Positions 38,823 through 61,395 of a stretch of DNA of 64,000 bases are shown piece by piece (position 1 is the stretch's first letter; each line of letters opens with the position of its first letter). Source of the stretch: Acidobacteriota bacterium (GTDB lineage: Bacteria > Acidobacteriota > Vicinamibacteria > Vicinamibacterales > UBA8438). The notes under the pieces were generated by a model. It searched no databases. It worked only from the letters and a program-made list of their open reading frames with translations, and had not been told where the DNA came from. The DNA lies in the NCBI GenBank assembly GCA_009838525.1, contig VXRJ01000038.1, positions 198,654-262,653 of the forward strand. The letters are read 5' to 3'. The translations under genes and the position numbers were made by a program.

Positions 38823-39671
38823 CTACGCGCGCGGTGGGTGGTGGTGAATCGTGAAAATGGTGAAGATGTCAAGAACCTCCGACCTTCCCTTTCGTGTCCT
38901 CATTCCACCGACGATTACTTCCGCACGATTTGCAAACGCCGCCGCGTAGGGATTCGGAGTCTGCCGCAGCAAGTTGTCATGGATTTTCCCTTTGATTACA
39001 CGGTTCGGGTTGTCAGCGAGCCGGAGCTTGCACCGTCCAGTGCGACGGTTCAGACCCTCTATTTCCAGAACGTGATACCTGGAAGGGTTGTCGATCACTT
39101 CATCGACGCTTCGTATTATTGCCGCGTCGGACTCGGTTGTCGTCATTGCGTCATCGGTGCGGTGAAACTGCGTGATTCCGGAGCAGCCGTACCCAATCAC
39201 ATCGACAGCCCTCTCCCGTGACCGCTCGACCAGATCATAGGCCCTCGTCAATAGTCGCTCCTCCGATTGTCTGAACTCCCTGATGAGACGCCTTTCATCT
39301 TTGCGGTCCTCGTAAACGCGGTCGATCTGCCTATCAGCACTTGTGCGCCTTGGAAGGAGCAGGTACGCGGACAGGAATTTAAATAGGACCGCGAAGTCTT
39401 GCGGCCTTCCCGGGAACGCGGTGTACGCGGTAACCGACGCGTCTAGAATCCACTGTAATTCGATGGAGTTGGCGGTCTGTGACGATATCCGTGTTGAAAC
39501 CGCACTTCTTCCCCGGTTTCCAGGGAGTCGCGACGTCGCCAGCAGCGAAGCCGCGACGGAGTAGATCCGAGAATAGCCGTGCACGGACTCCGCGTAGCGG
39601 CGTGCGTCCATCGACGTCGAGTACTTGTCGTACTCGTAGTGGACGATGAAGGGTTCAATGGGAGACGGCAT
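38823..39671 (-). CDS. Unrecognised protein in the defence island, 282 aa
   Basis: 282 residues. The N-terminal half is helical (YAESVHGYSRIYSVAASLLATSRL, SVTAYTAFPGRPQDFAVLFKFLSAYLL). The C-terminal ~85 residues look like a small barrel (NPSRYHVLEIEGLNRRTGRCKL, NRVIKGKIHDNLLRQTPNPYAAAFANRAEVIVGGMRTRKGRSEV). No enzymatic motif is apparent. The tail resembles a domain found at the ends of many prophage or island proteins, but I cannot name it. Its location between the SIR2 gene and the type I RM operon suggests a role in defence. The start at 39671 lacks a good SD. Confidence 0.6.
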   Translation of the reverse strand: MPSPIEPFIVHYEYDKYSTSMDARRYAESVHGYSRIYSVAASLLATSRLPGNRGRSAVSTRISSQTANSIELQWILDASVTAYTAFPGRPQDFAVLFKFLSAYLLLPRRTSADRQIDRVYEDRKDERRLIREFRQSEERLLTRAYDLVERSRERAVDVIGYGCSGITQFHRTDDAMTTTESDAAIIRSVDEVIDNPSRYHVLEIEGLNRRTGRCKLRLADNPNRVIKGKIHDNLLRQTPNPYAAAFANRAEVIVGGMRTRKGRSEVLDIFTIFTIHHHPPRA

Positions 39672-40103
39672 ACCGGAGCGTTGTGTGAATGTCTATGTCG
39701 CGACAAGCAGCGCGCCTTCGTCGGTGATCAGCAACGCGTCCTCCTCGGTTACCAGCAGCGACACCGGGGCTGGCTGCTGGAACGGCACATCGTGACCGTG
39801 CAGAGAAACGTGCAAGTCCGCGAAAGCGGGTTGCAGCGGGTGCGGTGTTGACAAGGGAGGTTGACTCGCGCCCCGGATCTGGCGCATACATCAACTGTTC
39901 GGGTACGTTAGCTTCCAATGGGCGTTCGGCTGGCACCGACTCAATCCTGTCCAGCGCCTCGGCACCATACGGCGGTGTTTCGCTGTACGAACGATTCTAC
40001 AGGACGGCATCAGTGGTGGGCGTCAATAGCAATCGAAGACTGCACAATCTTGGGGGAGACGTCTCGGGCTCAGTAGACGTTCTCACGTTGATGCCGACCA
40101 CAC
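39672..40103. other. Gap with remnants of a minus-strand gene
   Basis: No intact gene. On the minus strand, about 40018 to 39880 reads YGAEALDRIESVPAERPLEA then VPEQLMYAPDPGRESTS. After a frame change, 39887-39693 reads FADLHVSLHGHDVPFQQPAP and ends LLVTEED-ALLITDEG-ALLVAT before a TAG. The last part is a striking three-fold LL(V/I)T repeat. Together they look like one small gene broken by a frameshift, directly upstream of the gene at 38823-39671. Confidence 0.45.
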
Positions 40104-40154
40104 GTTTCGGGCGGGAAGCACGGAGCGAAGCGAGTGGAGTCCGGCCCGAAACGC
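40104..40154. terminator. Hairpin 3' of hsdR
   Basis: CGTTTCGGGC (40104-40113) pairs perfectly with GCCCGAAACG (40145-40154). The loop contains GGAGCGAAGCGAGTGGAG. On the minus strand it lies about 110 bp after the hsdR stop and may terminate the hsd transcript. There is no clear T-tract. Confidence 0.45.
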
Positions 40155-40160
40155 GCGCGG

Positions 40161-40216
40161 ATCACAGAACAGGGGAAGCGCGAACCCCTTTACCTCAACT
40201 CGATTCTCTGTGATCG
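40161..40216. repeat. Nested inverted repeat next to hsdR
   Basis: GATCACAGA (40161-40169) pairs with TCTGTGATC (40208-40216). Inside, AGGGG (40172-40176) pairs with CCCCT (40186-40190). The two nested arms could extrude a cruciform or fold as RNA. The element lies between hsdR and the hairpin at 40104-40154. It could be part of a compound terminator or the trace of a mobile-element end. Confidence 0.4.
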
Positions 40217-40266
40217 GTGGTCCAAGCCAAGCGGCCAAGGAGAAGTGACGGAAAGCGAGCCGTGGC

Positions 40267-43338
<3,072 letters not shown>

Positions 43339-43340
43339 CG

Positions 43341-44078
43341 TTAACCGACCTCCTGCCCGTCGTCACCCGGCGCAATGAGACCGTCAAGGTCGTCGGGCCC
43401 GTTCTGTCCGACGATATGGTCGTTTAGCGCGGCTTTGTAAGCCTCCGGATCCCCCTTGAACAGTACTTGACTTGGTCGCAGCCCCAAGTCGCTGACTCGT
43501 ATCGTCTCGTTGTCGTTATCAAACGCATCATTGAATTCAGCGTGATCTTCGTAGTAGATCCGAGCGCCCGGATTCTGTATGAGCGCGTCGCGATGGATGC
43601 GGTAGAGGAACGACACGATTGCATCCGCCGCCTGCGCGGCGAGCGTGGCATGCCGAGGGCCGAGCCGCGGGGAAGAGTCGTCGCGCCCATGTGAGGCCAT
43701 GCCATAGCTGTTGCGAAGCTCGCATAGGCCCTGGATGGTCTGAAGCAGACCCTGAATCGTCCTCTTTACCGACTCTCGCCCCTTCGCCGACGCGGGATGG
43801 TTGCGCGGCAATAGGGCCAGGAAGTTGGTCGTCTCCTTCAAGAGCTTCTGCGCATTCCACTTAGGGTCCGCCGGCTGACCGATGTCGGCGAGCACCGTCT
43901 TGCAGACGGACTCGACCAGCGTCTTGGAGAGATCGAAGGCAAAGTCGGGCACGCTCTCCAGCGTGCTCTCAATGGTGTGGATTTGCTGTTCTATCGCCTC
44001 GACGTTGGGACCGTCAAGCACCGCAGTGCGTGCACCGACCATTCGGAATGGAGTACGAGCTGTAGATGGCTCAGGCAT
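43341..44078 (-). CDS. Abortive-infection C-terminal domain protein inside the hsd operon
   Basis: 245 residues. The ATG at 44078 is chosen because it overlaps the hsdS stop (ATGCCTGA); the longer upstream frame is antisense-like text within hsdS. The core is FAFDLSKTLVESVCKTVLADIG, a helical stretch, then GLLQTIQGLCELRNSYGMASHG and ATLAAQAADAIVSFLYRIH, matching the Abi_C pattern with LRN..GxxSHG. Such domains are found in abortive-infection proteins and are probably HEPN-like, with RN and H as possible RNase residues. The placement between hsdS and hsdR ties its expression to the RM system. Confidence 0.8.
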   Translation of the reverse strand: MPEPSTARTPFRMVGARTAVLDGPNVEAIEQQIHTIESTLESVPDFAFDLSKTLVESVCKTVLADIGQPADPKWNAQKLLKETTNFLALLPRNHPASAKGRESVKRTIQGLLQTIQGLCELRNSYGMASHGRDDSSPRLGPRHATLAAQAADAIVSFLYRIHRDALIQNPGARIYYEDHAEFNDAFDNDNETIRVSDLGLRPSQVLFKGDPEAYKAALNDHIVGQNGPDDLDGLIAPGDDGQEVG

Positions 44079-45408
44079 GGGTGACCTCCATTCGCACTTG
44101 GCCGCCAACCAGCCTAGGCAATAGGTAGTCGCGTACCTCGGTGAGCTTTGCCGATTCAGTATGATTAGCCGTGGAAAGCGCGAATAGCGGATCGGTGATG
44201 TCAGCGAAGCCTTTCCGAACTGGAGATGGGGGCACGATGATCGATTTATGAAGCACGTCATCGGGACGTACGCGTTGATGGCTATTTGAAGTGCCAGACG
44301 CGCTCTGCGCCAGTTCCTCGCGAAACGAAGACTGCTGGAATTGGCAGTAGATATAATGCCGGTCGAAAGTTGACTTCGGCACAAACACCAAAAACTCGGT
44401 AGATGCAACCTGCCGTCGCCCACGAGGTGGTGGCGGCAGCCAGATTCTTGCGATTCGAGGATTCAACTTGGAGAGCAAAACGCATCCTTCCGAGACCAGA
44501 AACTTGTTGCTCTTGATTGCCTCACCGAATTCGACAACCGCGTACGTATCTGCGTCGAATGCGGGAATGCTGAAGTGGTCGAAAACCTCGTTAGCATGTT
44601 CCCGCGGATTCACCTGCACCTTCGAAAGGGTCGCGATGTTCGGTGTACCGCCAACTTCCCACCCGTCCGGCACGGCGCCGATCTCGGTATCGATGAAGTG
44701 GGTGGGCAAGGCGTCGAAGATCGCCTGGGGCATAGATGGAAAGGAGACTGCGCCAGCAGCTTTGGCCTTCACCGGCTCGAAGTCTACGAACCACGCCCGG
44801 AAGATCGCCTGGGCCAGCCGCTCAAGTGCCCGAGCCGTCCGCCGGTTCTGTTCAATTCTGTCGTCCAGTGCGCCGAGCACACCGGCGATGGTGCGCTGTT
44901 CGTTGGAGGAGGGTACCGGAAACGACATCTCCCTAAGGTGACTCGGGCCAAAGTGCCTTAGGACGCTTCCTACGGCTGACGCCTCTGCCTGAAGCTGAAA
45001 CAGCGGCGACATGAGGAAGTACCGGATGAAGCCGGCATCAACATCTACCCGAGCCGGACGCATCCGGATGATGCCGGTATAGGGGATCGAGCCAGCGGAT
45101 GCTTGGGTAGCTATGCTCACCCGACCGAGCGTGCCGCTCGTGCTGACGAGAAGGTCACCTGGCACAACGCGGAAATGTGGCCACCGCGACTCGACCATGT
45201 CTGGGTCGAGGAAGTTGCAGCCGACAAGATCAACAAACGGCCGTTCGATATTCCGCAACCGAAGCAGCGGCACCCCCTCTTCGCGAAAGTCCTTCGCAAG
45301 AATCCCCGGACCTTCCTGGAAGTTGATGGCATCTGCAAACGGGACAATTTCCCACTCAACGGGACACCCAGAGAACACGCTTTCATAGAGCGATGCGTGT
45401 TCACTCAC
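44071..45408 (-). CDS. hsdS: Type I restriction enzyme specificity subunit
   Basis: 445 residues from the GTG at 45408, which overlaps the hsdM stop by GTGA; an upstream in-frame ATG at 45471 lies inside hsdM. There are two target-recognition domains, each followed by a long helix. The first runs [33 protein letters not shown] to [47 protein letters not shown]. The second runs [20 protein letters not shown] to the tail [22 protein letters not shown]. HsdS selects the bipartite target sequence. Confidence 0.95.
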
Positions 45409-47078
45409 TTGGGGATCCCCTGAAGCATCGTTCGCACCACAGCCGTCAATTGATTGCCCTCTACGAAGCAATCCTCCAACTCTGCGAGCAGGCGCGGGTA
45501 CTTCTCCGCGAACGGCTCGCCGTCATCCTCCTGCTCCTCGGCGCCGACGTAGCGGCCGGGTGTAAGCACGAAGCGGTGCTTGCCGATGGCTTCGACCGAC
45601 TCGACCTTGCAGAATCCGGGGATGTCGCAGTACTCCCACTTGCCGTGCTTGGCCTCGACCCACCAATCCGGCGCAGGCTCGCCGCGCCACTGCCGGAAGG
45701 CGTAGACGATGCGGCCTAGGTCGGAATCGAAGTTGGGGTCACCCATCCCGTCGGCCAGCATACTTTCGCCGGCGTCGCCGCCGGTGAGCACGCGTAGCGT
45801 GCGGGTCTTCATCGTGCCGAGCTTGCCGGCGTCTATGAAGAGCGTCTCGCTCTTGCGGTTACGCCCGCCATGCTTGAGGTTCCTGCCGGTCTTGTCGCGT
45901 GTGAGAAACCAGAGGCAGGCAGGGATGCCGGTGGTTAGGAAGAGTTGGGCCGGCAGCGCGACGATGCAGTCGACCAAATCGGCCTCGACGATGCGCCGGC
46001 GGATTTCGCCCTCGCCGCCGGAGCCGCTGGAAAGTGAACCGTTGGCCATGACGAAGCCGGCGACTCCGCCGCCGTGACCGTTGGGCGGGGCCAAGTGGTG
46101 GATGAAGTGCTGGATCCAGGCATAGTTGGCGTTGCCAGCGGGCGGCGTGCCATGGCGCCAGCGCATGTCGTCGGCCAGCAGTTTGCCCGACCAGTCCGAG
46201 ATGTTGAACGGCGGATTGGAGAGTATGTAGTCGGCCTTGAGGTCAGGGTGCAGATTGCGTAGGAACGTGTCGGCAGGGTGAGAGCCGAGGTTGGCCTCGA
46301 TGCCGCGGATCGCCAAGTTCATGTGCGCCAGCCGCCACGTGGTGGGATTGGACTCCTGACCGAAGATCGAGATGTCGGTCTTCTGTCCGCCGTGCGCTTC
46401 CACGAAGCGTTCGGACTGCACGAACATGCCTGCCGAGCCGCAGCAGGGGTCATAGACGCGACCCTCATATGGCTCGAGCATCTCGACCAGCAGCCGTACG
46501 ATGCAGCGTGGCGTGAAGAACTCGCCGCCGAGCTTGCCTTCAGCCTGAGCAAACTTGCCGAGGAAGTACTCGTAGACGCGGCCGAGCGTGTCGCGGGCTT
46601 TGGCACGGTCGTCTTTGAAACCGATGTCGGCAATCAGGTCGATCAGCCCCTTCATCTTCTCCGGTGCGATGCCGCGGCGGGCGTAGTCGCGCGGCAGCTT
46701 GCTCTTAAGGTTCGGATTGTCGCGCTCGACGGCGAGGATGGCGTCGTCGAGCAGCGTGGCGATGTCCGGTCGCGCGGCTTGGTTCTGAAGGTTCTGCCAG
46801 CGTGCCTCGGGCGGCACCCAGAAAACCCGCTCGGCGGTGTACTCGTCGCGGCTCTCCAGCAGGCTCTCGAGCTGAGGCCCGGCGATGCCATCGGCTTCCA
46901 GTTCGTCCTTGAGCTCGCCGCGTCGCGCGTCGAAGGAATCGGAGATGTACTTCAGGAAGAGCAGGCCGAGGACGACGTGCTTGTACTCGGCGGCGTCGAT
47001 CTGACCGCGCAAGGCGTCGGCCGACTTCCATAGGACGTCGGCGTAGTCCAAGTCGGCGGTTGCATCATTGTTCGTCAT
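45405..47078 (-). CDS. hsdM: Type I restriction enzyme M subunit (adenine methyltransferase)
   Basis: About 557 residues from the ATG at 47078 ([21 protein letters not shown]); an ATG seven codons upstream at 47099 is also possible. The HsdM_N helical domain ([20 protein letters not shown]) precedes the N6-adenine methyltransferase domain with motif [16 protein letters not shown] and motif [13 protein letters not shown]. It methylates adenine with HsdS, marking self DNA. It is first in the operon hsdM-hsdS-Abi_C-hsdR. Upstream in-frame text to 47213 is not protein-like. Confidence 0.96.
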
Positions 47079-47099
47079 GCCTGATTCAGCCTTCTTCAT

Positions 47100-47679
47100 C
47101 TTCCGACGCCAAGCGCCGGACCAGAGCGGTCGGTACGCGTACCATACCGCCCTCTCGTTTGAACCCGTTTGTTTTGCGACCGAATCCGCCCCGCTCAACT
47201 CCGCGGTATCCACCGCTCCAGAGGAACTTTGGAACTGGAAGCGACCCTTGCTCTCAGCGGTTCCAGCGGCATCGGCTTCGGCAAGGTGCGTGTGAGCACA
47301 TGTGCCTGCTCGGCTAGTACGGTCACTCCCAGTGACGTTCCGCGTTCAGTCACGGGATCGTCATCGTCGTCACCCATCGTCCCCGATGTTGTCGCCCCGG
47401 CACCGTGGCCGCTGCCCAGTAACCATACCGCACGACCGTGAGCGACGCCGACTTATCAGACTATCGCACGCTGGGCGAACCCGAGCGCCAACTTGCCACA
47501 ACGACACGGAACCTATCGCCGACGAAGAGGCTAAACAATTGGCACAGGCGGCCGAGAACGTGGCCGGGTTCGTGCTGCTTTCTGGTCGACCGGCGTGAGG
47601 CCGGCAAGGTGCGGCAAACATGTCAATGGCAATTGAAACTGCACATGCACCGCACACTCTGGCTGAGGACGGATCTGGA
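47100..47679. other. 580-bp gap upstream of hsdM
   Basis: No convincing gene on either strand. Open frames here (for example on the plus strand from 47438) are rich in Arg/Pro/Ser and lack domain patterns. The region probably holds the hsdM promoter near 47100-47200 and sequence continuing from the methyltransferase remnant at 47680-47804. No repeats of note. Confidence 0.5.
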
Positions 47680-47804
47680 CCGGCCGCCTCGGGTAGCCCG
47701 GTACTGGCTCGTCGATCCCCTCGACCCACTCCGGCGGGTTGAGCCATCCGCTCCGCAACTCGCCGAGCCCTCGGGCTTCCAGGGCTACAGCCACGAAATT
47801 GGCC
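47680..47804 (-). pseudogene. C-terminal fragment of a class I (MmeI-type) DNA methyltransferase
   Basis: On the minus strand from 47804 the frame reads NFVAVALEARGLGELRSGWL, then NPPEWVEGIDEPVPGYPRRP. This matches the conserved end of large class I DNA methyltransferases (typically ..RGLxELRDRWLNPPEWVxWVDEPVPGYPKRP). The rest of the methyltransferase is absent, and the downstream TLTNLYN-type motif cannot be found. Upstream text in a second frame (AVELVYLDDRLDSKGQ, about 47866-47818) may be an earlier part separated by a frameshift. It is a relic of a lost RM or BREX-like system. Confidence 0.6.
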
Positions 47805-47876
47805 CTTGCTGTCCAGTCGGTCGTCGAGGTAGACCAGTTCTACAGCATCAAGATCGGCGAGTTCCCGGCGCCAACA

Positions 47877-48410
47877 TCAACGAGTTTCCCGTGTGCTCGA
47901 TCGACGAGTGGCGAGTAGTCGTCGCATCTCTCCAGCACGAGGCAGGTTCGGATCGTGCCGCGCCGGCGTCGCCGTCAGCTCCCGAACGTACTCGATGGGC
48001 AAGCCATGTTCCCTGGCGCCGCCAACTACAAGATCACGATACCAGTCGAACGGAATCAACGCGTTGTCTACGAACACTTCCTGGGCGATGTAGGTCGCCG
48101 CGGCTTCCGACCGGCCATCCGGGACGTGAACCGATACCAATTGACGTACATAGCCTCCAGTGTGAACACCCTCGACCCGATCCAGGGTGATGAGATCATC
48201 CGGCGCCACCTCAAAGAGCACACCCCATGCGGCGGCCGAGTCGTCCGCCGCGACCAACGTACACTTCCCCGACCCGTCCCGGCCGCGCTTGTGAAAACGG
48301 ACCCGAAAACCCGGCACTTTTCCGATTGCGTGCACGATTGCGTCAGGGACCCGGCTAGGGTGGAGCAAGCGCTCCTCCAGCATATTGGATCCGTAGGCGA
48401 AGTAGATCAC
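47877..48410 (-). CDS. Gamma-glutamylcyclotransferase-like (AIG2) protein
   Basis: 177 residues with the GGCT/AIG2 fold: the opening YFAYGSNMLEERL (substrate loop), the conserved GFRVRFHKRGRDGSGK, the catalytic Glu in ITLDRVEGVHTGGY, and AATYIAQ then a C-terminal helical tail with DWYRDLVVGGAREHGLP. It probably handles gamma-glutamyl peptides or another amine-linked substrate. Its ATG overlaps the stop of the upstream membrane-protein gene by ATGA. The substrate is unknown. Presence in a defence island is unusual. Confidence 0.88.
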   Translation of the reverse strand: MIYFAYGSNMLEERLLHPSRVPDAIVHAIGKVPGFRVRFHKRGRDGSGKCTLVAADDSAAAWGVLFEVAPDDLITLDRVEGVHTGGYVRQLVSVHVPDGRSEAAATYIAQEVFVDNALIPFDWYRDLVVGGAREHGLPIEYVRELTATPARHDPNLPRAGEMRRLLATRRSSTRETR

Positions 48411-49183
48411 GGCGTTCTCTCCTGTGGAGTGGTCGCCCTTGTTGCGTCCGCGTACGCGAGAAGGACTCGGCGGTAGAAACTGGCCTGCGTCCTGAACTGC
48501 TGATGCATCAGCACTCCTCCGAAGAAAAGGGAAACCAAGGTGAGGATGGCGGCCAACAAGACTCGCTCGCCGGATGCCGCAGAGTCCTTCGCGCCAAGCG
48601 CAGCCAACGCCAAACAGGCTACTCCCGTCACAACACCGGCTGAAATGAATGCCGCTCCCAAGGCAAGACGTACATGCCGAATCGTGTTGGAGCGTTCGAT
48701 GAAGCGGTCATGCAACTCCTTGTTCCGTCCTAGTGCGACTATCTCAAGCATTAGATGGTGATCTCGATCCCTGACGATCCCTTTTAGGTTCGCGGTGTTG
48801 GCGTGGGACAATTGTTCGTCGATGTATTCGAGTGACTCACGTCGCGCAGCGGCCCGCAATCTCGCGAGATCTCCAGTATTCTTCTCTGGAAGAACCGGAC
48901 AGGCGTCCCGCTCGCTAGACAAGCAGAAACCGATACTCAACATGACTTGGCCGATGGCAAACAAAAGGAACACGGCGGTCGTCGAGACCGCGACGAACAT
49001 GGAGCCACCACCGAAGATATCCGCAAGGCCGTCGAGAATGGTGAGGGTCGGCCTCTCAGGGGCAAGAAGGAGCCAGGGAACACTGGCGACGAACACGAAG
49101 ACCCCCCCGGCAACGACGTAAACCAGAACGTCGCGTCCGAAGGATGCAGCACGGTCGTATAGCGCATCAATCCACAGCGTCAC
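48407..49183 (-). CDS. Four-helix membrane protein coupled to the GGCT-like gene
   Basis: 258 residues with four membrane segments: LVYVVAGGVFVFVASVPWLLL, MFVAVSTTAVFLLFAIGQVMLSIGF, LALGAAFISAGVVTGVACLALAAL, and VLLAAILTLVSLFFGGVLM. A cytoplasmic loop of about 80 residues (LARLRAAARRESLEYIDEQLSHANTAN..RDRDHHLMLEIVALGRNKELHDRFIERSNTIRH) separates the pairs. No motif I recognise. It is translated with the GGCT-like gene. A membrane effector with a soluble partner is a common defence layout, but this is only a guess. Confidence 0.7.
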   Translation of the reverse strand: MTLWIDALYDRAASFGRDVLVYVVAGGVFVFVASVPWLLLAPERPTLTILDGLADIFGGGSMFVAVSTTAVFLLFAIGQVMLSIGFCLSSERDACPVLPEKNTGDLARLRAAARRESLEYIDEQLSHANTANLKGIVRDRDHHLMLEIVALGRNKELHDRFIERSNTIRHVRLALGAAFISAGVVTGVACLALAALGAKDSAASGERVLLAAILTLVSLFFGGVLMHQQFRTQASFYRRVLLAYADATRATTPQERTP

Positions 49184-49389
49184 GGGATTCCCCTCGTCTT
49201 GTCGGTCTCGCGTCTCGTTCAGCCACCAAGCCCCGTAGTCCCTTGCAGGATCGCGTCGAGCGCCTCGCAGGCACCGCCCTGCCCGGCATCGGTCACCGAT
49301 GGATACATCGGCAGCGGGAGTCCGAATCTCCTACGCTCAGAGCCCCGCCCTCAAGCACCCCACGCGCGCCCCGGTGCCCTAAACAACTC
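49184..49389. other. Gap with no gene
   Basis: Spans the space between the membrane-protein start and the decayed abiEi. No open frame has a protein-like pattern and no repeat is evident. Possibly the promoter for the 49183-47877 operon. Confidence 0.5.
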
Positions 49390-49835
49390 CCATCCGCCGC
49401 CTACGCCGCGCTGCCATCATACCGAACACGACAGCCACAAGTCGGTCGCTGCTGCGACCGCGCGGCGTACAGTCGGCAACGGTGCGAGCGATGCCGTAGA
49501 TACGAACCGTCTGGCCCTCGATGTGGGGTACTCCCCGATCCCGAGATCGAACACTACCGTGGAGATGTTGACGACTCGGAGCGCCGGTGTCGAAACGCGC
49601 GGCAGGCGCGTACCACGCGGAATGGCAATCCAGACTTCAGCCGAAAGCTGCGTTCCGATGGAATCGGAGAGTCGAAAGCAGGCGAACCACCGACTGTGGC
49701 GACGCGGCGAGGACAGCCAGATCGTGGTACTCAGTGTGGCGAGTTGTCCTCGTTAGGCGATATCGCCCGGGGACAACCCTCTCCGGCGCACCTGAGTGTG
49801 CTAGTGTGAATGCCTTGGTGAGCTACGTTCCTGGC
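49390..49835 (-). pseudogene. Decayed AbiEi-type antitoxin gene
   Basis: Minus-strand translation with frame changes gives LTKAFTLAHSGAPERVVPGRYRL then TEYHDLAVLAASPQSVVRLLSTLRFH, a frame change, IGTQLSAEVWIAIPRGTRLP then RVVNISTVVFDLGIGEY, a second frame change near 49530, and HIEGQTVRIYGIARTVADC. This is the ordered AbiEi pattern (SGALERV.GRY, LLSALxFH, TQxxxEVWIAIPRG, GVPVRIYxxARTVADC). The 3' part after VADC is truncated and no AbiEii nucleotidyltransferase follows. Two frameshifts make it non-functional. AbiE is a type IV TA abortive-infection system. Confidence 0.65.
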
Positions 49836-50008
49836 CCGCAGCGCGGTTTGCTTCTCGGCGAGGCGCAGAGGTTGGCCTCTTGCGGTTTCTCAGCGTCGCG
49901 TCGTTTTGCTTACACTCATAGACGTCTGTAAGCGAATTACGGCATCTGGACCGAGCTTCGAAACGGTGGAACTGTCCGCTCGACCAGAATGCTCTCTCTG
50001 GGGCTTTC

Positions 50009-51555: not shown

Positions 51556-54500
51556 TCATCTCGCAATGATGTTGTGCACTTCTCCGCCGTTCACAACCTC
51601 ACGATCGAGCGCAGCGACCTCTGCCGCTACCCCGTCCTCAAGGTCGAAATGGTCCCGCCGGCCGTGGCGGCGCGCGAGTTGCACCAGGTCGCGCATGTAG
51701 GCGAGGCCCTCGACGACACCCGGTACATCGAGAACCTCGGGGCTAGCATCGAGCAGCGGCTGCGCAAGAAAGACCACCGACTTGGCTCGAGCCCGGGTGA
51801 CGGCCACGTTGAGGCGGTTGCGGCTGTAGATGAAGTCCGCCTCCAGCGCGGCGTACTCGGGGTCGGCCACGCCGTAGGAGACGAACACGGCGTCGGCCTC
51901 CCGCCCCTGCATCTTCTCGACGGTGTCCACGAAAGGGCGCGCCGACCAGTCACGGTTGCCGGCAAGGGCGCGGCGAATGGCTCGGATCTGGGCGTGGTGG
52001 GGACTCACGACGAACAGGCGCTCTCGCCAGAACGCATCATCGTCGGTGACGTCGGCCATGTCGTCCCGAAGCGCAATGGCGAGTCTGCTGACGAGCGCCG
52101 CCTCGACTTGGTTTGCGTTCGTTGCCTGCACGCCCTGGAGAATCACCACGACCAATGGCGCATGAGGCGCAAGACACGCACCCGTGAGCCCGGCGCGGCG
52201 TTGCTGCAAGTGCAGCCTCCGCGACGCCACGTTGGGCGTGGCGCAGCGGTAGTCGGGCCCGTACAGCAGGCGCGCCGCACCGGTCAGCACGTCGCACATC
52301 CGCCAGTTTTCCAGCAACTGGCAGAGCGGCGTCCCGGGCCGATCGGGGCGCTCGCGCAGCAAGTCGAAGACGGAGCGGTGCAGTGCGGGTTGCCCTGCCG
52401 CGGGCTCGGGATAAGTACCGGTGATGATCGGCCCCAACTGGAAGTGGTCGCCGGCCGCGACGAGACGCCCCCGGTCGTGGACGCGGTCGATCGCCAAGGC
52501 CGCGTCCGGCACCCGCAACTGCGAGGCCTCGTCGATCACCACCAAGTCGAAGGGCGCTGACGACTTCGCTAGGCCCCAGACGGTGCTGCCCACAATCGCG
52601 GCGTCGTGCCCGTCCAGCCAACTGTCGAGCTGTTCCGCGACGATCCTCTCGATGCCGCCAGGCGCGTCGGTCACCCGCCCGCCAACCTTGGCCAGCGCCG
52701 GCGCCGGTCGGCCGAGCTCATCGGCAATCCGCACGATCATCCGCAGCAGGTTGTCGATGGCGGCGTGGGTCATGGCGCAGATGAGGATTCGGAGCCGCCG
52801 CCGTTTCCGAGGCGCCCCACACAGGCCGAGCGCCAACGCGGCCAGAAAGTGCGTCTTCCCCGTGCCCGGCGGGCCCCATATCGCTGTTACTCGCGAGCGG
52901 GCGATGGTGCGCAACGCAACAGCCTGGCTCGGTGTGAGGCGGAAAGTGGCTGCCGTTTCCACTGGGTCTACCGCCCGAGACAAGCTCTCGGCGCCGGCCG
53001 CCGCGGCCGAGTCGTCGAGCAGCCGGACGAACAAGCCGCGCGTGTCGAACTGCTTCAGGCCGTCAATCGCCCGGTCGGTATTGAAGTCCAGGAAGCTGGG
53101 CATCAGCAGGACGCGGGCGCCGTTCTCGAGCGGTGGGTCGTGCCAGTGCGTCCAGTCGATATGCACGGTCCGTGCGAATCCCAGCGGGTCCGTCTCGACG
53201 GCAGCGACCTTTCCGATGCCCACATGCGCATCGGCGCGCCCGCCCCAGTGCCGCGCCCGGTGCGCCCAGTCGTTGAAGCGCGCCTGCGCACGCAGGCCCT
53301 CCGGAGTGTCTCGTACGACCAGCCAGCGAGCGAAGCTGCCGTCGTCGATCTCGATGCCGTCGGCGGCCACGCGGAAGCGCCCCTCGCCTTCGTGGACCAG
53401 AGGCCTCAGTGTCCCCTTGGCGGCCATCACGTCGCGCGCTTCGCAGCGTCCCGAGCGCACTGCGAGGCATCCCATAACGCTCTCGTAGCGAGCGAGGAAG
53501 GCCAGACGAGACAGCCTCGGGTGGTCGATGCCGGCCGACGAGATCAAAACGTGCTTGGGTGGCCAAGTCACGAGCTGGTCGCCGGCGAGGTCCCTGATCT
53601 GCCAGAGCGCCGCGCGGTAGCCGTACAGGCGGTGGGCGGCTTCCCGCACGACGGGTTGCAGGTCGACATCCTCGCCGTTCCAGGCCCGGAGCGCTGCGTC
53701 GGCGCGTACGGCATGACCGAATGGGTAGTGAAAGCGATTCCGCCGGACTTCGAACTTCGAGCCGAGCGCGGCGAGCGTTTCCGGCAGCGTGTAGGACACG
53801 TCAACGGGCAGGGCTAGCAGCCGACCGGCCGCCGAAACGAGCGGGATCAGGGGATGGGCGACCACGTCCCGAGGATGGTCGTCCACCTGCAGCAGGTCCG
53901 GGACCTGCAGGTGGAACAGCAGAGCCATCGCCGCCTGCGACAGTTGCGGGTCGGGCAGCGCCTCTAGCAGCACCCGCACGAGCCGCTCCCGCTCCTGCTC
54001 GCTGTAGCAGTAGAGCTGGACCGACAGTCGGTCCCTCCACTCGGGCGTTTTCGCATTCCAGTCGTCGATGCGGCGCAACACCTCGTACAACCGGCGGATG
54101 AAGCGCTCCCGCACGACCGCGCACTCTTCCCGGCTGTCCGCGACAACGACGAAGGGACGCGCCGGCCCCTCTTCCGCCAGAATGCTACGGCGCAGATCCT
54201 CGCGGGCCTGAACGAGCATCCCGAGCAGCCAGGTGCGGTCCTCGACCGGCTCGGTCTGTGCGCTCAGGAAGATCGCCACGTTCTCGCCCACGGGCAGCCC
54301 TGGGTGGAGTGAGCCGAAGACGCCGGGTTCCCCGCTGGCGTGCGCCTCCAGGCGCACCTCAAGGCGCGGGCGCTCGCCGGCCAGCGACGCGCAGCCCTGC
54401 AGCCGGTCGTCGGCGTCGGGCACACGCAGGGCGGCCGACAGTTCGGGCAGGGTGTGCACCCCGAGCGACCTGCCGAGGAAGCGCTTGCCGTGCGCGGTGA

Positions 54501-55323
54501 GGCCGACAAGACGAGAGACATCGTCACGCTCCACCATCTCGGATCGGCAGTAGTCCAGATACTCGCACCATTCGCAGCGGTAGCGGACGTGCCAGTCCAC
54601 CTCGTCGAGCGGCTGCGCGACGAGGGCCGGCAGCCGGGCGAGCACGTCCTCGAGGTGCGGCCGTACGACCAGTAAGTCGAAGTCCTCCGGTTCGGGTGCG
54701 CCGCCCAGCCACGCTGCCCCGGTTGCGAGGTCGACGCGTCCGTCGATGCCCGCCGCGCGCAGGACATGGGCGAGCTCGATCGCGTAGAACAGCACCTGAA
54801 TGCGGTAGGGAAGTCTCACCGTGCTCCCCCGTTTGACGTCGATCACGCGGAAGCGGCGTCCCCCCGCAGCCTCGGCCGTGACCTGCACGAGGTCGGGCCG
54901 GTTGTCGGTGATCTCGATCTGCGTCGGGTCGATGGCCAGGGCTTCGTACAGGGAGGCGGGCGCGCGCAGGGTCAACTGGTAGAGGAACTCTCCGTGCCGG
55001 GCGCGGCGCAGCAGATCGACGCTCTCCTCGACCGACCAGACGCGATCCGCCAGCGCGCCGTCGCCGTCTGCGACGAGCGCGCGGCCGGCGAGGTGGGTGG
55101 TCAGGATCTGCTCTTCCCACGTGCGGCCGCTTTCTAGGACCTCGGCCATCACCGGGCCCGACTCGTAGCGGCGTTGCGGCACGCCGTTGCGCGACGGCCG
55201 CCGCGTGGCGCGGAAGCGCAGGAACCGATCGCAGTCGTGGAAGAAGTACCGCGCCAGGGTAGATGGGCTGACGCCGAAGGGCGCGCGCGGCTCCGGCTGA
55301 ACCCTCCGTCGCAAGCGGCTCAC
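51556..55323 (-). CDS. Cas4/RecB-like Fe-S nuclease fused to a UPF1-like SF1 helicase
   Basis: 1255 residues from a GTG at 55323. The N-terminal ~270 residues form a PD-(D/E)xK nuclease of the Cas4/TM0106 kind: ARYFFHDCDRFLRF (first Cys), ITDNRPDLVQV (~140), RFRVIDVKRGSTVRLPYRIQ (DxK), then CEWCEYLDYC (~248-258) to complete a 4Fe-4S site. The C-terminal SF1 helicase has AIWGPPGTGKTHFLAALAL (~816), FDLVVIDEASQLRVPDAALA (~926), AAGDHFQLGPI, VEKMQGREADAVFVSYGV and NRLNVAVTRARAKSVVFLAQ. It should load on DNA ends, unwind and cut. It is translationally coupled (GTGA) to the HATPase-DUF3883 gene upstream, and no other partner is seen. Confidence 0.92.
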   Translation of the reverse strand: MSRLRRRVQPEPRAPFGVSPSTLARYFFHDCDRFLRFRATRRPSRNGVPQRRYESGPVMAEVLESGRTWEEQILTTHLAGRALVADGDGALADRVWSVEESVDLLRRARHGEFLYQLTLRAPASLYEALAIDPTQIEITDNRPDLVQVTAEAAGGRRFRVIDVKRGSTVRLPYRIQVLFYAIELAHVLRAAGIDGRVDLATGAAWLGGAPEPEDFDLLVVRPHLEDVLARLPALVAQPLDEVDWHVRYRCEWCEYLDYCRSEMVERDDVSRLVGLTAHGKRFLGRSLGVHTLPELSAALRVPDADDRLQGCASLAGERPRLEVRLEAHASGEPGVFGSLHPGLPVGENVAIFLSAQTEPVEDRTWLLGMLVQAREDLRRSILAEEGPARPFVVVADSREECAVVRERFIRRLYEVLRRIDDWNAKTPEWRDRLSVQLYCYSEQERERLVRVLLEALPDPQLSQAAMALLFHLQVPDLLQVDDHPRDVVAHPLIPLVSAAGRLLALPVDVSYTLPETLAALGSKFEVRRNRFHYPFGHAVRADAALRAWNGEDVDLQPVVREAAHRLYGYRAALWQIRDLAGDQLVTWPPKHVLISSAGIDHPRLSRLAFLARYESVMGCLAVRSGRCEARDVMAAKGTLRPLVHEGEGRFRVAADGIEIDDGSFARWLVVRDTPEGLRAQARFNDWAHRARHWGGRADAHVGIGKVAAVETDPLGFARTVHIDWTHWHDPPLENGARVLLMPSFLDFNTDRAIDGLKQFDTRGLFVRLLDDSAAAAGAESLSRAVDPVETAATFRLTPSQAVALRTIARSRVTAIWGPPGTGKTHFLAALALGLCGAPRKRRRLRILICAMTHAAIDNLLRMIVRIADELGRPAPALAKVGGRVTDAPGGIERIVAEQLDSWLDGHDAAIVGSTVWGLAKSSAPFDLVVIDEASQLRVPDAALAIDRVHDRGRLVAAGDHFQLGPIITGTYPEPAAGQPALHRSVFDLLRERPDRPGTPLCQLLENWRMCDVLTGAARLLYGPDYRCATPNVASRRLHLQQRRAGLTGACLAPHAPLVVVILQGVQATNANQVEAALVSRLAIALRDDMADVTDDDAFWRERLFVVSPHHAQIRAIRRALAGNRDWSARPFVDTVEKMQGREADAVFVSYGVADPEYAALEADFIYSRNRLNVAVTRARAKSVVFLAQPLLDASPEVLDVPGVVEGLAYMRDLVQLARRHGRRDHFDLEDGVAAEVAALDREVVNGGEVHNIIAR

Positions 55324-58300
55324 GTCAGGCGCTCATCGTCAACCGGGTTGTAGTTCAGCGGCAGGTCGCCGGGGTCCAGCGGTTCGGGCGCGGCCGGCGA
55401 CAGGGCGATCAACCCTTCCGCCGTCGCCTCGGCAGGGTGTTCCGCAGTGTCTCGCCATGCGTACGCGTAGAAGCCATACCGCAGTCGGGTGCGCTCTCGC
55501 GCCCACCTGATGGGAAACACCCGCGGGCGTTCCGTCTCGGTAGAGTCCACGACATAGAGCCAGTACTCCACCCTCTCATCGTCGTTCCGTAGCGCGTCGT
55601 TCGCCTGCTTCGCCGTGAGCGCCACGCTGGCCTCCTCTTCGAAGCGCCCCTGGACTCCCTTTACCTCGATTCGCCGCTCCCGGCCTCCGTCATCGACGCT
55701 TCGCACGTCGAAACCCGGCTGCAGGTCAGGCATCGCCTCGGCTCGCCGGCCGTGCTGCTTCTCGTACTGGAGCACCGCCTGCCTTGCGCGGTGATCATCC
55801 CGGGGGGTTCCCCGCACAGAGGCTGCGTCGCCGGTGTCCGTGTCGTGATTTCCGCGCGACATGACCAGCATCCGGACATGGTCGGCGGCGCGGCCGCCCG
55901 GCGTGGGCGGGCGCGTGCGGCTGCCCCCTTCGGCGGCGTGGTCACGGTGGCCGTTCGGCCGCGCAGGCTTTCCGTCGTCCCGCCGACCGCCCGCTCGCGA
56001 TTTGCTGCCGCCGAACGGGCCTGAGGCGGCGCGAGGGCCAGGGCGGTTGTCTGCGCCGCCGGCGTGCGGGCCGGATAGACCGGAACTGCTGCGCGGTGTT
56101 GGTACGCTCTCGTCTCCGCCGCCGGACACCGAGTCCGGGGCCTTCTCCCGAGCGTCGGTGCCCACATCCGTATCCTCGTCGGCGGAGGAATCCTCCGTCG
56201 ACGGCTTCTGGCTGATGCCGGACGCTGTTGCAGCCGGCTCGACGCCGAGCCCGTCAGCCAGCAGCTTCAGGTGGCGGCGGAACGCGCTCTCGTCGTCGAG
56301 AGCGAAGAGAGCCCCGGTGAGCCGCGGCACCTCCTGTCCGCGCTGCCCCAACTGGAAGTGCTCCACGAGCTGCTCCGCGGCTTGTACGGCGAAGTCGGCG
56401 GGATTGCCGACCAGCAGCAACGTCGTGCTCTGATTGTCGACTCCCTCTACGTATGCCCAGACGGCATGGCGCCGAGCGCCTACTCGCAGCGAGAGCGCGT
56501 TGTGCAAAGTGACATCGTGCAGGGAAGGCCGATCTTCGAGTTGTGAGAGGGTCGCTGTCAATTGCCGCAACCGGTTGGCCCACGGCGGTTCCGTCGCTCG
56601 CTCTCCTGGCTCGACCTCGACTTCGGCCGACAGCAGGGCGACGTCGAGAGCCTGCGCAACACGTCGAACCTGCGCCTTGGTGTCGCCCAGATGGGCGGAT
56701 GCGACCGCGATCCTGTCCGTCGGCAGGAACTCGCGGATGAGTGGCGACTGCACATCGTCGACCACGAGCGTCGGACCGATGGGATGCCACTCGCGGTGCC
56801 CATAGAGCTGCGCCTGCGCACGAGCTTCCTTCCAGGCGCCGACCGGAAGGTCCCCAGCGTCCATATCGTCCAGCACGTAACGGTAGGCGGCGGCGAGGTG
56901 GCCGCGGAGCACCTCGACACCGGCTGTTGGTTTCCGTTCCCATGTGTCGAGAAGAAAGGCCAGCGCTTGTCGGCCGGTGGTGGTGTCGGGCAGCGGCTGC
57001 AGCTCGGCGGCCGCCTGCACCGCGTCGGCGAGCGCCGGCTCGAAGTCCGAGAGCGCGACCACCCAGCCCCCCAGGTTGCCGCGCGCTCCGGCTCCGGCTC
57101 CGGTTCGCCGCACGACCCGGCGCGTCAACGGTACCCCGTGGAGATTCACCACGGCGAGCGCGCGGCGCAGATCGTCCTCCGTTGCCTCTCCGGCTCCGAC
57201 CGCCTCCAGCGCCTCCCGGAGCAACGCTGCGAGATCGCTGTCGTCTATTTCCGCGGCGCCCCGTCGTTCGAGTCGGCGCAGGGTGGGCGACTGCGGAACT
57301 GCGCCCCCGAAATCCACCCCTTCTTCCGCCAACCGGGAAGCGAGATCGCCGTCAATGTCAGCGACCGGCGCGTCCTCCCGGTCGGGGTCGGCGGCGAGCA
57401 GCACTTCAGCGGGTCTGCGCCGTTCGCCGTCTGTGCAGAGCAGCCAATCGTGGCTCCGCAGGTCCCGGACCCACTGGGCCGGCGCCCGCCCTGGCGTGGA
57501 ACGCCGGTAGTGAAAGAAGCTGGTCGCCGAATGACATCCCTGCCCGCGGAAGGCGTGGTGCTCAAGCGTTAACCACTCCTGCAGTGCCGCTCGCGGGACG
57601 CTGTCGATCGCGAACGGAAAGTGACGATCGTGGACTTTGTAGCCCGCGTCGTTCGCCTGTTCGACCTCCGCTACGTCGACGCCGATTCGCGTCGCCACCC
57701 GATCTCTCTCGGATCGGGGCATCCGTTCCGTTCGCACCTCGGTTGCACCTGCACCGCACACCTCGAGGCGTTCGAGGAACGCCACGACGGCCGAGCGGTC
57801 GACGATGTCGGCGTAGGCCGCGACGAGAGCAGGTTGTGAAAAGAGACCACGCCGGCTCTCGCCGCCGGGGACCAGCGGATTTGCCATGAGTGCGTCCGTG
57901 GGCTTGCAGGGCCCTTCTTCTGTCAGGACCAACGGCACGAGGTCCTGGCGCAACGGACCCTTGCCGAGCGCCCACGCCAGGAGTTCCACCAATGGAAGCT
58001 CGGCGCCCTCGTCGGCCGCCCGCCGAATCAAGTCGGCGAGCTTCACCTCGTTATGGTGTTCCTTCAGCCATCTGACGCCGGCATCATGAGGCCGGTTGTT
58101 CACACGATTGCGGATGCCAGACTGCAATTGCCGACCGCGGGTCGGCAGAAACGCAACCAGCGCTTCGGCGACAGCGCGCCCGCTTGGCTTGCGCCTGCTT
58201 GGCGGCTCCTCGTTCAACCACGAGGTGTCGCGCGCCGCCGCCCATCCGCCCGCCTTCGTCGGGACGACCGGAGCATGGTGCCACTCGTTCTTTGCGATAC

Positions 58301-59777
58301 CACGCCAGAGCGCGAAAAGGGCATCCGGCCGCTCGTCTTCCGGGAGTGCGCGCCACCAGTTCGGCAGCGTGTCCCTCCATGCGACTTCGTCGGCCTCGAG
58401 TACGCTCCCCCACTCCAGCCAGATCGCGAAGTCCGTGGCGCGTTCTCCCAACAGGTGTGCGTCCATGACCGTCGAACCGAAGAGCAGGTCGGGGCGCCAC
58501 GAGGAAACGAAGTCGGCGTGGAAGGGTTCGGGTAGGACTGCCGCCTGTTCGGGAGTACAGAACTGTCTTGGGCCCGGGCCGTGGACCGGCACGATCGGCT
58601 TATCGGCGAGGGTCCGGGCAAGGTCCTCGCGCAGATTCCGGAATGGGCCGGCCAGCAGGCCACCGTCGTCATCGGGTTCGCACAAGGCACGGTAGCCGCG
58701 TTCCCGCATGGCATCCGATTCGCCGGACAGCCAGATCAACAATTGGCGGACGATTTCCGGAACCTGTCCCACGATGGCTTCCTGCCAGGCGTCTCCAGCG
58801 ACCTCGCGCAGTTGCTGCCGGTCGACGTTGACGAACCAGTCGGCCTGCAGGTGGAATCCGAAGGGAATCCGGACCTGTGTGGGTAGCGTCGCGTACACGC
58901 ATCCATGATCGGCCGGACTCGGCAGGCCGTCGTCGTCGAGCCGCAGCAGACCGACGACTTGCCGTTCTGCCCGCCGGCCTCCCGGGTCGACCTGATCGTG
59001 AGTTTCTTGCCGCACCTCTAGGAAACGGCGCATGGCGGCGTCGTCCGGGCGGTAGTGGGCGACGAACGCCTTCCAGCGCCAGCGTGCGTCGCTCCCCGAA
59101 CGGCGGACGGTAACGATGTCGTCTTCGACCGAGAGCTTCCAGACGACCTCGTCGACGCTGACCTGGGTGAGGCCGCGCAGTGCAAGCACCGCGAGCGTGG
59201 TCCGGTTCTCGGTCGACGCCAGCCGTTCCAGGTCGTCCGTCACCGGGCGCCGCGGCTCTGCGGGTCGACCGAGCAAGAATGCGGTGGTGTAACCCGCGTC
59301 CGGTGCGGGGACTTCGTCGTCCCAGTGTGGACGCAGCGTGTCGAACCACTCTGGTACCTCCGATTCGAGATCTCCGCGTCGGACGCCGACATCGAACCGG
59401 AAACGCCAGTCGGCGTCCGAGACGCGCGCCTCCCGAAAACGCGCGAAGACCGACTTGAAGCCCACGCCCATGAAGCCCACCGTGGCGAGTCCCTTGGTGG
59501 ACGCGCCGAGCGAAGACAGGCCTCTGACGTCGGATTCGTCCAGCGCAAGGCGACCGTCGTGCTGGAACACTACGGCGTCGCCTTCCGATCGCCAGCAGAC
59601 CCGCCTCGCGCATGCGTCCACGGCGTTCTGCGTCAACTCGTAGATGTACATCCACGGGTGCGGCAGGCCGGCCGACAGCAGTTTCTGGACCGCTGTGCGT
59701 GCTCCCTTCCCGAATTCGTCTTCGTTTTTCTGTCGGATCCTGTCGACCACGCTGCGGCGGTCTGCATTCGTTGTCAA
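55320..59777 (-). CDS. Sacsin/Hsp90-type ATPase with C-terminal DUF3883 (NO VEIN-like)
   Basis: 1485 residues. The N-terminal Bergerat ATPase is evident: YIYELTQNAVDACARRV (E47, N51, D54), FQHDGRLALDESDVRGLSSLGASTKG (D74) and GFMGVGFKSVFARF (104-109). This is the sacsin-like GHKL subgroup. A ~1100-residue middle has no motif I recognise. A disordered Gly/Ser/Arg-rich linker (~1205-1330) precedes the DUF3883 domain: AVLQYEKQHGRRAEAMPDLQPGFDVRSVDDGG, RRIEVKGVQG (ExK) and TAKQANDALRNDDERVEYWLYVVDS. This gives a RecB-like nuclease core. The HATPase-plus-DUF3883 layout is also found in plant NO VEIN protein. It is co-translated with the downstream nuclease-helicase. A proposed role is DNA end sensing or remodelling. 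Confidence 0.9.
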   Translation of the reverse strand: MTTNADRRSVVDRIRQKNEDEFGKGARTAVQKLLSAGLPHPWMYIYELTQNAVDACARRVCWRSEGDAVVFQHDGRLALDESDVRGLSSLGASTKGLATVGFMGVGFKSVFARFREARVSDADWRFRFDVGVRRGDLESEVPEWFDTLRPHWDDEVPAPDAGYTTAFLLGRPAEPRRPVTDDLERLASTENRTTLAVLALRGLTQVSVDEVVWKLSVEDDIVTVRRSGSDARWRWKAFVAHYRPDDAAMRRFLEVRQETHDQVDPGGRRAERQVVGLLRLDDDGLPSPADHGCVYATLPTQVRIPFGFHLQADWFVNVDRQQLREVAGDAWQEAIVGQVPEIVRQLLIWLSGESDAMRERGYRALCEPDDDGGLLAGPFRNLREDLARTLADKPIVPVHGPGPRQFCTPEQAAVLPEPFHADFVSSWRPDLLFGSTVMDAHLLGERATDFAIWLEWGSVLEADEVAWRDTLPNWWRALPEDERPDALFALWRGIAKNEWHHAPVVPTKAGGWAAARDTSWLNEEPPSRRKPSGRAVAEALVAFLPTRGRQLQSGIRNRVNNRPHDAGVRWLKEHHNEVKLADLIRRAADEGAELPLVELLAWALGKGPLRQDLVPLVLTEEGPCKPTDALMANPLVPGGESRRGLFSQPALVAAYADIVDRSAVVAFLERLEVCGAGATEVRTERMPRSERDRVATRIGVDVAEVEQANDAGYKVHDRHFPFAIDSVPRAALQEWLTLEHHAFRGQGCHSATSFFHYRRSTPGRAPAQWVRDLRSHDWLLCTDGERRRPAEVLLAADPDREDAPVADIDGDLASRLAEEGVDFGGAVPQSPTLRRLERRGAAEIDDSDLAALLREALEAVGAGEATEDDLRRALAVVNLHGVPLTRRVVRRTGAGAGARGNLGGWVVALSDFEPALADAVQAAAELQPLPDTTTGRQALAFLLDTWERKPTAGVEVLRGHLAAAYRYVLDDMDAGDLPVGAWKEARAQAQLYGHREWHPIGPTLVVDDVQSPLIREFLPTDRIAVASAHLGDTKAQVRRVAQALDVALLSAEVEVEPGERATEPPWANRLRQLTATLSQLEDRPSLHDVTLHNALSLRVGARRHAVWAYVEGVDNQSTTLLLVGNPADFAVQAAEQLVEHFQLGQRGQEVPRLTGALFALDDESAFRRHLKLLADGLGVEPAATASGISQKPSTEDSSADEDTDVGTDAREKAPDSVSGGGDESVPTPRSSSGLSGPHAGGADNRPGPRAASGPFGGSKSRAGGRRDDGKPARPNGHRDHAAEGGSRTRPPTPGGRAADHVRMLVMSRGNHDTDTGDAASVRGTPRDDHRARQAVLQYEKQHGRRAEAMPDLQPGFDVRSVDDGGRERRIEVKGVQGRFEEEASVALTAKQANDALRNDDERVEYWLYVVDSTETERPRVFPIRWARERTRLRYGFYAYAWRDTAEHPAEATAEGLIALSPAAPEPLDPGDLPLNYNPVDDERLT

Positions 59778-60049
59778 GCGTTGTCCTCCCTCGGTCGTTC
59801 TGCGCCTCGCCAGCCTCAGCGGAACGGAGCCGCAGGCGGTCGTTGATGGCTCCAGTGGCCATCGGGTCGATCATCGGATCGCACGAGCAGTCCTGCAAGT
59901 CGGCTCGCGCCTTGCCGCGGTCGGCGATCTTCCCCGTAGGCTCTCGGTTGTCCACGCGATGCGCGAGCGGCACGGTGGGCAGATCGAGCGCTGGGAGCGT
60001 ATCCGTCAGACCGACGCCTTGACCAAGTCCGGCGAGAAGTGCGAAGACA
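59778..60049. other. 272-bp region upstream of the HATPase operon
   Basis: No recognisable gene. A continuous minus-strand frame (containing DVFALLAGLGQGVGLTDTLP, LAHRVDNREPTGKIADRG) extends over 59800-60057 and has no convincing start. It overlaps the end of the Phd-like gene. It probably contains the promoter for the HATPase-helicase operon, and possibly the relic of a toxin that once followed the Phd antitoxin. Confidence 0.45.
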
Positions 60050-60325
60050 TCATCTGCACTCGCTGATGATGATGTCGCTCGCGCTGCCGCAGTCTCGGAG
60101 TCCCATTGATGGTCGCCCGCTCTTCAGCCGTCGGCCGCTCCAATCGATTGTCAGGCTGGCTCTCAGCGCGGCGCGTGTCCGCTCAGCGGAGTCCGTCTCC
60201 GGGATGATCCGCGGCACTTGACTTCCGTCACGGATCACGACGAGCGTGGCGCCGTTCTCTACGGCGTGGATGTAGCTGTCGAGATCCGATTCGAGTTCCT
60301 GTAGGCTCACCTGCCGCTCTGGCAT
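60050..60325 (-). CDS. Lone Phd/YefM-type antitoxin
   Basis: 91 residues: MPERQVSLQELESDLDSYIHAVENG, TLVVIRDGSQVPRIIPET, then a basic C-terminal helix (ERTRAALRASLTIDWSGRRLKSG) ending SASDIIISECR. This is the full Phd fold and length. No toxin gene follows on the same strand; the next gene downstream is the 1485-residue ATPase 272 nt away. It may be an orphan, an anti-addiction gene or a regulator of the large operon. Confidence 0.8.
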   Translation of the reverse strand: MPERQVSLQELESDLDSYIHAVENGATLVVIRDGSQVPRIIPETDSAERTRAALRASLTIDWSGRRLKSGRPSMGLRDCGSASDIIISECR

Positions 60326-60826: not shown

Positions 60827-61395
60827 GTGACGGAATTAACCGTCTTCGTGACACGCAACGGCAGACAAAGTTCATCGCCATGAATCTTCCGGACGGACAG
60901 TCGCTCGAACTCACAGCGGGCGGCCAGAACGTACTCGTCAAGGAGATCGTCGAGCAGCTTGCGCCGCGCTTCACCCCCGGCGGCTACGTGATCTACGGCG
61001 GCGACACGGCGGAAGAGCACCTGCTCTACGACGAAGAGTACCTGCGGGACCTGGGCGTTGAGATCGACCGGTATGGGAAGATGCCGGACGTCGTGATCCG
61101 CTACGTCGAGCGCAACTGGCTCATTCTCATTGAGGCTGTCACGTCGCACGGTCCGGTGAACGTCCTGCGCCACAACCAACTCAAGGACCTCTTCGCCGGG
61201 TCAATAGCCGGGCTCGTCTTCGTTACGACGTTTCTCGACCGTGCGACGATGGGCGAGTACTTGCCGGAGATCGCTTGGGAGACGGAGGTGTGGGTCGCCG
61301 ATGCGCCTCGTCTCCCGTTATCAATCGGGCTCTGCCCGATTTGGCGTGACACACTACAGGACCCTGACGAACATGAAGTCACTACCCGATGCTGA
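60827..61395 (+). pseudogene. BsuBI/PstI-type restriction endonuclease, C-terminal domain, decayed
   Basis: From the ATG at 60880 the frame gives LTAGGQNVLVKEIVEQLAPR, TPGGYVIYGGDTAEEHLLYD, DRYGKMPDVVIRYVERNWLI and LIEAVTSHGPVNVLRHNQLK, the conserved catalytic domain of BsuBI/PstI enzymes, ending IAWETEVWVAD. In a second frame, 60827-60868 reads VTELTVFVTRNGRQS and would join at about 60868 with one frameshift. After VWVAD the sequence diverges to a random tail (APRLPLSIGLCPIWRDTL). The N-terminal half and the cognate methyltransferase are missing. The catalytic D and E/K residues are still visible. It is a relic. Confidence 0.75.

Follow-up and report, generated by a model that had tools for sequence, protein, structure and literature searches.

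A Tiamat-like ATPase gene overlapping a gene for a putative DNA2/Bad-type nuclease-helicase in an acidobacterial defence island

Layout and surroundings of the gene pair

The window (the whole stretch of 64,000 nucleotides of acidobacterial DNA that was analysed) contains two very large genes on the minus strand, referred to below as P1 and P2. Their features are listed in Table 1. Both reading frames are open. The end of P1 and the beginning of P2 share four nucleotides (...CTG ACG TGA / GTG AGC... at 55323-55320), confirming the coordinates and the GTGA overlap described from the sequence alone. This overlap implies a single transcript with translational coupling.

Table 1. Features of the P1-P2 gene pair (positions in the window).
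Feature	Position	Strand	Description and basis
P1 gene	55320..59777	-	Encodes 1485 aa: sacsin-type GHKL ATPase, DUF3883 nuclease domain at the C-terminus; TTG start codon
P1 ATP-binding site, sacsin-type, residues 44-116	59430..59648	-	E47/N51, D74, GVGFKS 104-109; NF047352
P1 linker, residues ~1181-1325	55803..56237	-	Ser/Gly/Asp/Arg-rich low complexity (sequence); gap between tblastn pieces of relative L048
P1 NOV_C/DUF3883 nuclease-like domain, residues 1330-1421	55515..55790	-	PF13020; GFD 1355-1357, ExK 1371-1373, Q1391
P1/P2 stop/start overlap GTGA	55320..55323	-	Sequence
P2 gene	51556..55323	-	1255-aa protein, best read as a fusion of an iron-sulphur nuclease with an SF1 helicase, of the DNA2/Bad type
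P2 Cas4/AddB/DNA2-like nuclease, residues 1-300	54424..55323	-	C31, D144, D162xK164, Q176, Y180, C250, C253, C259
P2 UPF1/DNA2-like SF1 helicase, residues ~796-1197	51733..52938	-	GPPGTGKT 817, DEAS 931, QGREAD, VAVTRAR; AAA_11, AAA_12
Shine-Dalgarno-like GGGAGG, upstream of P1 TTG start	59785..59790	-	Sequence; surroundings conserved in L027

The defence-island setting proposed for the pair was borne out by its neighbours. These comprise a DSR2-like SIR2 gene (1273 bits), a Type I RM system with an Abi_C gene, a gene with a BsuBI/PstI REase domain, and an ATPase plus DUF4276 pair (HEC-01). The REase-domain gene (60880-61395) encodes a solo protein of 171 aa whose match to full-length REase models is confined to their C-terminal half, and no methylase was seen adjacent to it. 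Upstream of P1, a 91-aa ORF (60056-60325, minus strand) looks Phd/YefM antitoxin-like by eye; it gave no Pfam match and no toxin gene follows it. The GC content of P1 and P2 (68-69%, 52000-60000) is that of the rest of the genome fragment, and that of the DSR2/RM part is 58-63% (32000-50000), a gap which hints at separate origins. Elsewhere in the same genome, a full-length Tiamat distinct from P1 (TmtA, 520 bits; L105, 6946-10242) lies on contig C16 near a Type I HsdR gene, and contig C18 carries a NOV_C/DUF3883 protein of about 1154 aa (L057, 5888-11198) followed by a gene that appears SIR2-like by eye.

Relatives of the two proteins

The reading of P1 as a sacsin-type ATPase with a C-terminal DUF3883 domain was upheld, both models being matched above their cut-offs. 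Residues 44-116 match the NCBIfam sacsin ATPase NF047352 with 53.4 bits (cut-off 50), and residues 1330-1421 match Pfam NOV_C/DUF3883 (PF13020) with 38.6 bits (cut-off 22.1). The ATPase motifs (E47..N51, HDG at 73-75, GVGFKS at 104) are present, as are PGFD at 1354 and EVKG at 1371. DUF3883 has been described as a domain of the restriction-endonuclease type (PMC3710099). Its D...ExK is intact in P1, and the residues GFD, ExK and Q1391 are also present in a true Tiamat.

Relatives of P1 were searched for in the genomes of the phylum with its N-terminal 351 aa as query, and P1-type proteins were found only in the genome of the window, in G026 and in G317. The nearest relative (L027, from the Acidobacteria MAG COS1_bin_16, genome G026) is about 87-88% identical over 261 aa. 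Its start codon is kept in place (GTG instead of the TTG of P1), and a dN/dS of 0.35 over 261 codons corresponds to purifying selection, indicating that P1 is a selected gene. Upstream of P1, the homology between the window and L027 stops about 65 bp before the start codon, so P1 moves into different neighbourhoods. The copy in G317 (L048) is broken: its reading frame changes at least three times, three stretches of it are missing, and it lacks the low-complexity linker of P1. A scan of contigs with P1 produced a sole relative, which was partial. No PDB match was found for P1. Viral contigs scanned with P1 and with P2 gave no match for either; their scan with query A1 picked up a single nuclease, partial and situated at the end of its contig.

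P1 shares with Tiamat (TmtA), a single-gene anti-phage system in PADLOC, the N-terminal sacsin-type ATPase, the C-terminal DUF3883 domain and a length of about 1500 aa. However, the TmtA models of PADLOC cover only both ends of P1. The best match reaches 127 bits (model positions 1244-1511 of 1563), whereas true Tiamats scored for comparison (L105, L115, L061 and the HNH-bearing L126) match end to end with 520-1284 bits. A tree built from 33 ATPase domains placed P1 with L048 in a clade of their own, which had a support of 100/100 and a long stem and stood apart from Tiamat (L061/L115) and from Hma-type ATPases. The partial match and the separate clade rule out P1 as a true Tiamat, from which it also differs by having an overlapping partner gene. 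Judged by its sequence, P1 is related to Tiamat, on a deep branch of its own. A further family of sacsin ATPases (L100, L107 and L109) has members about 1350-1590 aa long. In L100 and L109, the two scanned with PADLOC, the C-terminal third matches models of PbeA and of Type IV restriction (mREase_IV), corresponding to an ATPase-helicase/restriction fusion.

P2 had been described as a 4Fe-4S Cas4-like nuclease fused to a UPF1-like SF1 helicase, and this description was substantiated. Residues 141-260 match PDDEXK_1 with 24.4 bits (cut-off 22), residues 798-1184 correspond to an AAA_11/AAA_12 helicase, and the SF1 motifs are all present. In an alignment of 12 bacterial, archaeal and phage-contig nucleases, the four cysteines C31, C250, C253 and C259 were invariant together with D144, D162, K164, Q176 and Y180, giving the pattern C250x2C253x5C259, DxK and QxxxY. 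The closest solved structure is DNA2 (5eaw, E 3e-14), of which only the helicase aligns detectably; a nuclease profile of the P2 type found no PDB match. P2 has in common with DNA2 and Bad an N-terminal iron-staple RecB-family nuclease, a C-terminal SF1B helicase and a similar length, and its most plausible reading is a bacterial enzyme of the DNA2/Bad type, an Fe-S nuclease fused to an SF1B helicase, with a predicted activity. Bad is a bacterial DNA2-like enzyme that combines a 5'-3' ssDNA motor with an ssDNA endonuclease carrying an Fe-S cluster and prefers 5' ends; its gene lies beside a Type III methylase gene, and its cellular role is stated to be unknown (PMC7430649).

The sequence-only reading had also placed the helicase in the TM0106 type, and here the models disagreed. 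Although the TM0106 family (TIGR03491) has the same architecture, P2 scores 40.9 bits, under the curated cut-off of 97.45 and weaker than its match to Dpd-associated proteins, which excludes it as a TM0106 member. The best PADLOC model for P2 is DpdJ (156 bits), with a match restricted to positions 22-463 of 2112; P2 is thus not a DpdJ either. On alphaproteobacterial plasmids, P2 is collinear with two overlapping genes, the first encoding a 771-aa Fe-S nuclease and the second DpdJ, of which the N-terminus aligns. Such Dpd-type loci were aligned from Skermanella, Methylobacterium, Caulobacter and Azospirillum. They share with P2 the order of nuclease, middle region and SF1 helicase as well as the invariant residues. 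In at least one case, that of Skermanella, the gene pair adjoins dpdA/dpdB and 7-deazaguanine genes. The Dpd-type loci differ from P2 in consisting of two genes, in the extra SF2 YprA helicase of DpdJ and in their base-modification genes; P2 is one fused gene without these. In sequence, P2 therefore resembles a fusion of the 771-aa nuclease gene with the SF1 portion of DpdJ, the SF2 half being absent. Fused P2-type proteins were also found in G376, in Chlorohelix and on many haloarchaeal plasmids; these haloarchaeal proteins and the Dpd-type pairs are the closest relatives of P2. Within the phylum, the P2-type nuclease is strong in 3/396 genomes (that of the window, G376 and G404), and in G404 the gene stands alone beside gyrA.

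Co-occurrence of P1 and P2 and other partners of sacsin ATPases

The sequence-only reading had proposed a search for co-occurrence of the two genes across genomes, and this search was run. Sacsin proteins above the cut-off were present in 24 of the 396 genomes of the phylum sample. The neighbourhoods of 30 sacsin loci besides the window were scanned over about 10 kb, some contigs being short, with an iterated helicase profile that also picks up TM0106 proteins at about 1e-33. None of these 30 loci had a UPF1-like helicase near the sacsin gene; the window alone has one. Conversely, neither of the two other genomes of the phylum with a P2 relative (G376 and G404) contains a sacsin gene. P2 is also absent from G317, whose P1 relative is the broken gene. 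In G026, P1 is cut by a contig end, and the remaining part of P1 and any P2 are absent from the assembly, so this genome is uninformative on pairing. Within what was searched, the P1-P2 pair is therefore not a conserved unit, and the exact pairing was seen once among the genomes examined. Tiamats mostly occur as single genes, and P2-type genes often have other partners, so neither gene of the pair obviously needs the other.

Two loose analogues of the pair were found, both on plasmids. In Ensifer adhaerens (plasmid pCTYH.Ch1_3; L163, 5779-15500), one strand carries in succession the genes for a DrmD-like helicase, a sacsin ATPase and a TM0106 nuclease-helicase with gaps of 0-11 nt, the TM0106 gene starting 11 nt downstream of the sacsin gene. 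In Halorubrum hochsteinianum (L126, 8875-17979), an HNH-bearing Tiamat-like ATPase is convergent with a P2-type nuclease-helicase about 90 bp away, the only such neighbour among about 18 P2-type loci examined. The Ensifer cluster was rejected as a conserved three-gene system, its close relatives in Rhizobium and Mesorhizobium having the helicase and the sacsin ATPase without TM0106, or TM0106 without the sacsin ATPase.

Sacsin ATPases were found beside other helicases at several loci. The DrmD-like helicase and sacsin ATPase, without the TM0106 gene, recur in Rhizobium bangladeshense and Methanomethylovorans. An HmaA-type SNF2-DUF3883 helicase followed by a sacsin ATPase forms a recurrent two-gene operon in five Acidobacteriota loci (L096, L097, L050, L052 and L103); in the one such operon scanned, the HmaA model gives 1683 bits and the sacsin ATPase scores as a partial TmtA. 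A NERD-UvrD helicase lies directly beside a sacsin ATPase in Sphingomonas. On a Sulfuricurvum plasmid (L160, 8243-16778), a NERD gene and a sacsin-DUF3883 gene lie directly upstream of a complete QatABCD system. The recurrent pairing of sacsin ATPases with unrelated helicases (SNF2, DrmD-like, UvrD, DNA2-like) suggests a general logic in which an ATPase-nuclease is combined with a helicase. For MORC/paraMORC operons, Iyer et al. 2008 likewise inferred that ATPase, nuclease and helicase act as partners (PMC2292703).

The P1-P2 pair resembles the Hma and DrmD-like operons in having a sacsin ATPase beside a helicase gene and DUF3883 in the operon. Their helicase is however of the SF2/SNF2 type with DUF3883 fused to it, whereas the helicase of P2 belongs to SF1 and comes with an Fe-S nuclease of its own, and no SNF2 gene (HmaA-type with DUF3883) is present in the P1-P2 operon. 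The MORC/paraMORC R-M operons likewise unite a GHKL ATPase, a helicase and a restriction-fold nuclease (PMC2292703); they differ in that the P1 ATPase is sacsin-type, the P2 helicase is SF1 and not SF2, and the P1-P2 operon is without a methylase.

Possible functions of the pair

The claim of a new two-gene defence system held in part. As had been suggested, no PADLOC, Pfam or NCBIfam model names P1 and P2 together, but both genes come from known defence-linked families and their co-conservation fails. A new two-gene system is therefore possible and not shown, and we regard P1-P2 as known parts in a new combination, not as a proven new system.

In the explanation that we favour, P1 would be an ATP-gated GHKL clamp bearing the DUF3883 PD-(D/E)xK nuclease on a flexible linker. 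It would recognise or clamp foreign or abnormal DNA and then nick or license it. P2 may load at the resulting 5' end or flap, then unwind and resect the DNA; its SF1B helicase would translocate 5' to 3' as its iron-sulphur nuclease cuts single strands. Such a handover would be analogous to that from MutL-type ATPase-endonucleases to a helicase-exonuclease, the nearest precedent being discussed in PMC2292703. We infer the physical partnership of P1 and P2, DNA as their target, the order of events and the anti-phage function. Taken as a whole, this explanation, in which P1-P2 is a genuine translationally coupled two-gene operon built from two known defence-linked modules and acts by nicking followed by resection, is tentative, and our confidence in it falls just short of even. 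A stronger proposal, which we consider unlikely, is that P1 and P2 form a two-component immune system not described before: the Tiamat-like ATPase-nuclease would license the DNA2-like nuclease-helicase, which would then resect the DNA of the invader.

The main rival, doubtful yet of appreciable probability, is that two independent solo defence genes, a self-sufficient divergent Tiamat (P1) and a self-sufficient Bad/DNA2-like enzyme (P2), overlap by chance in the island. Tiamat is indeed a one-gene system in PADLOC, solo Tiamats exist in the phylum (L115, 1077 bits) and in the window's own genome (L105), fused P2 relatives have many different neighbours, and the exact pair was not seen elsewhere. 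Against a chance overlap stand the translational coupling implied by GTGA, the repeated pairing of sacsin ATPases with helicases, and the Ensifer cluster, where these two activities stand in tandem independently.

A DNA-repair module, in which P2 would process stalled forks or 5' flaps as DNA2 does and P1 would be a repair clamp, appears improbable. In its favour, DNA2 is a replication/repair enzyme, Bad is stated to have no known role (PMC7430649), and one P2 relative lies isolated beside gyrA; however, the very sporadic distribution of both P1-type and P2-type genes and the defence-island location argue against repair, as does the change of flanks upstream of P1 in its nearest relative, which is expected of a mobile module. 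That the pair is a remnant or derivative of Dpd (7-deazaguanine DNA) restriction, with P2 as a fused Dpd nuclease and DpdJ N-terminal helicase that works together with recognition of modified bases, would account for the collinearity and the best PADLOC model, but is very improbable given the small matching part of DpdJ, the missing YprA SF2 half, the occurrence of fused P2-type proteins outside Dpd loci, and the PADLOC scan of 20 ORFs of the window, which showed no dpdA/dpdB or 7-deazaguanine synthesis genes near the pair.

Our literature search found no paper describing the mechanism of Tiamat. The P1-P2 operon provides a concrete link between Tiamat-like proteins and bacterial DNA2-like enzymes, and it poses the question of whether a sacsin ATPase-DUF3883 protein creates the site at which a DNA2-like resection motor enters. 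If the reading of the pair as a two-component immune system is true, bacterial DNA2-like enzymes would gain an immune function.
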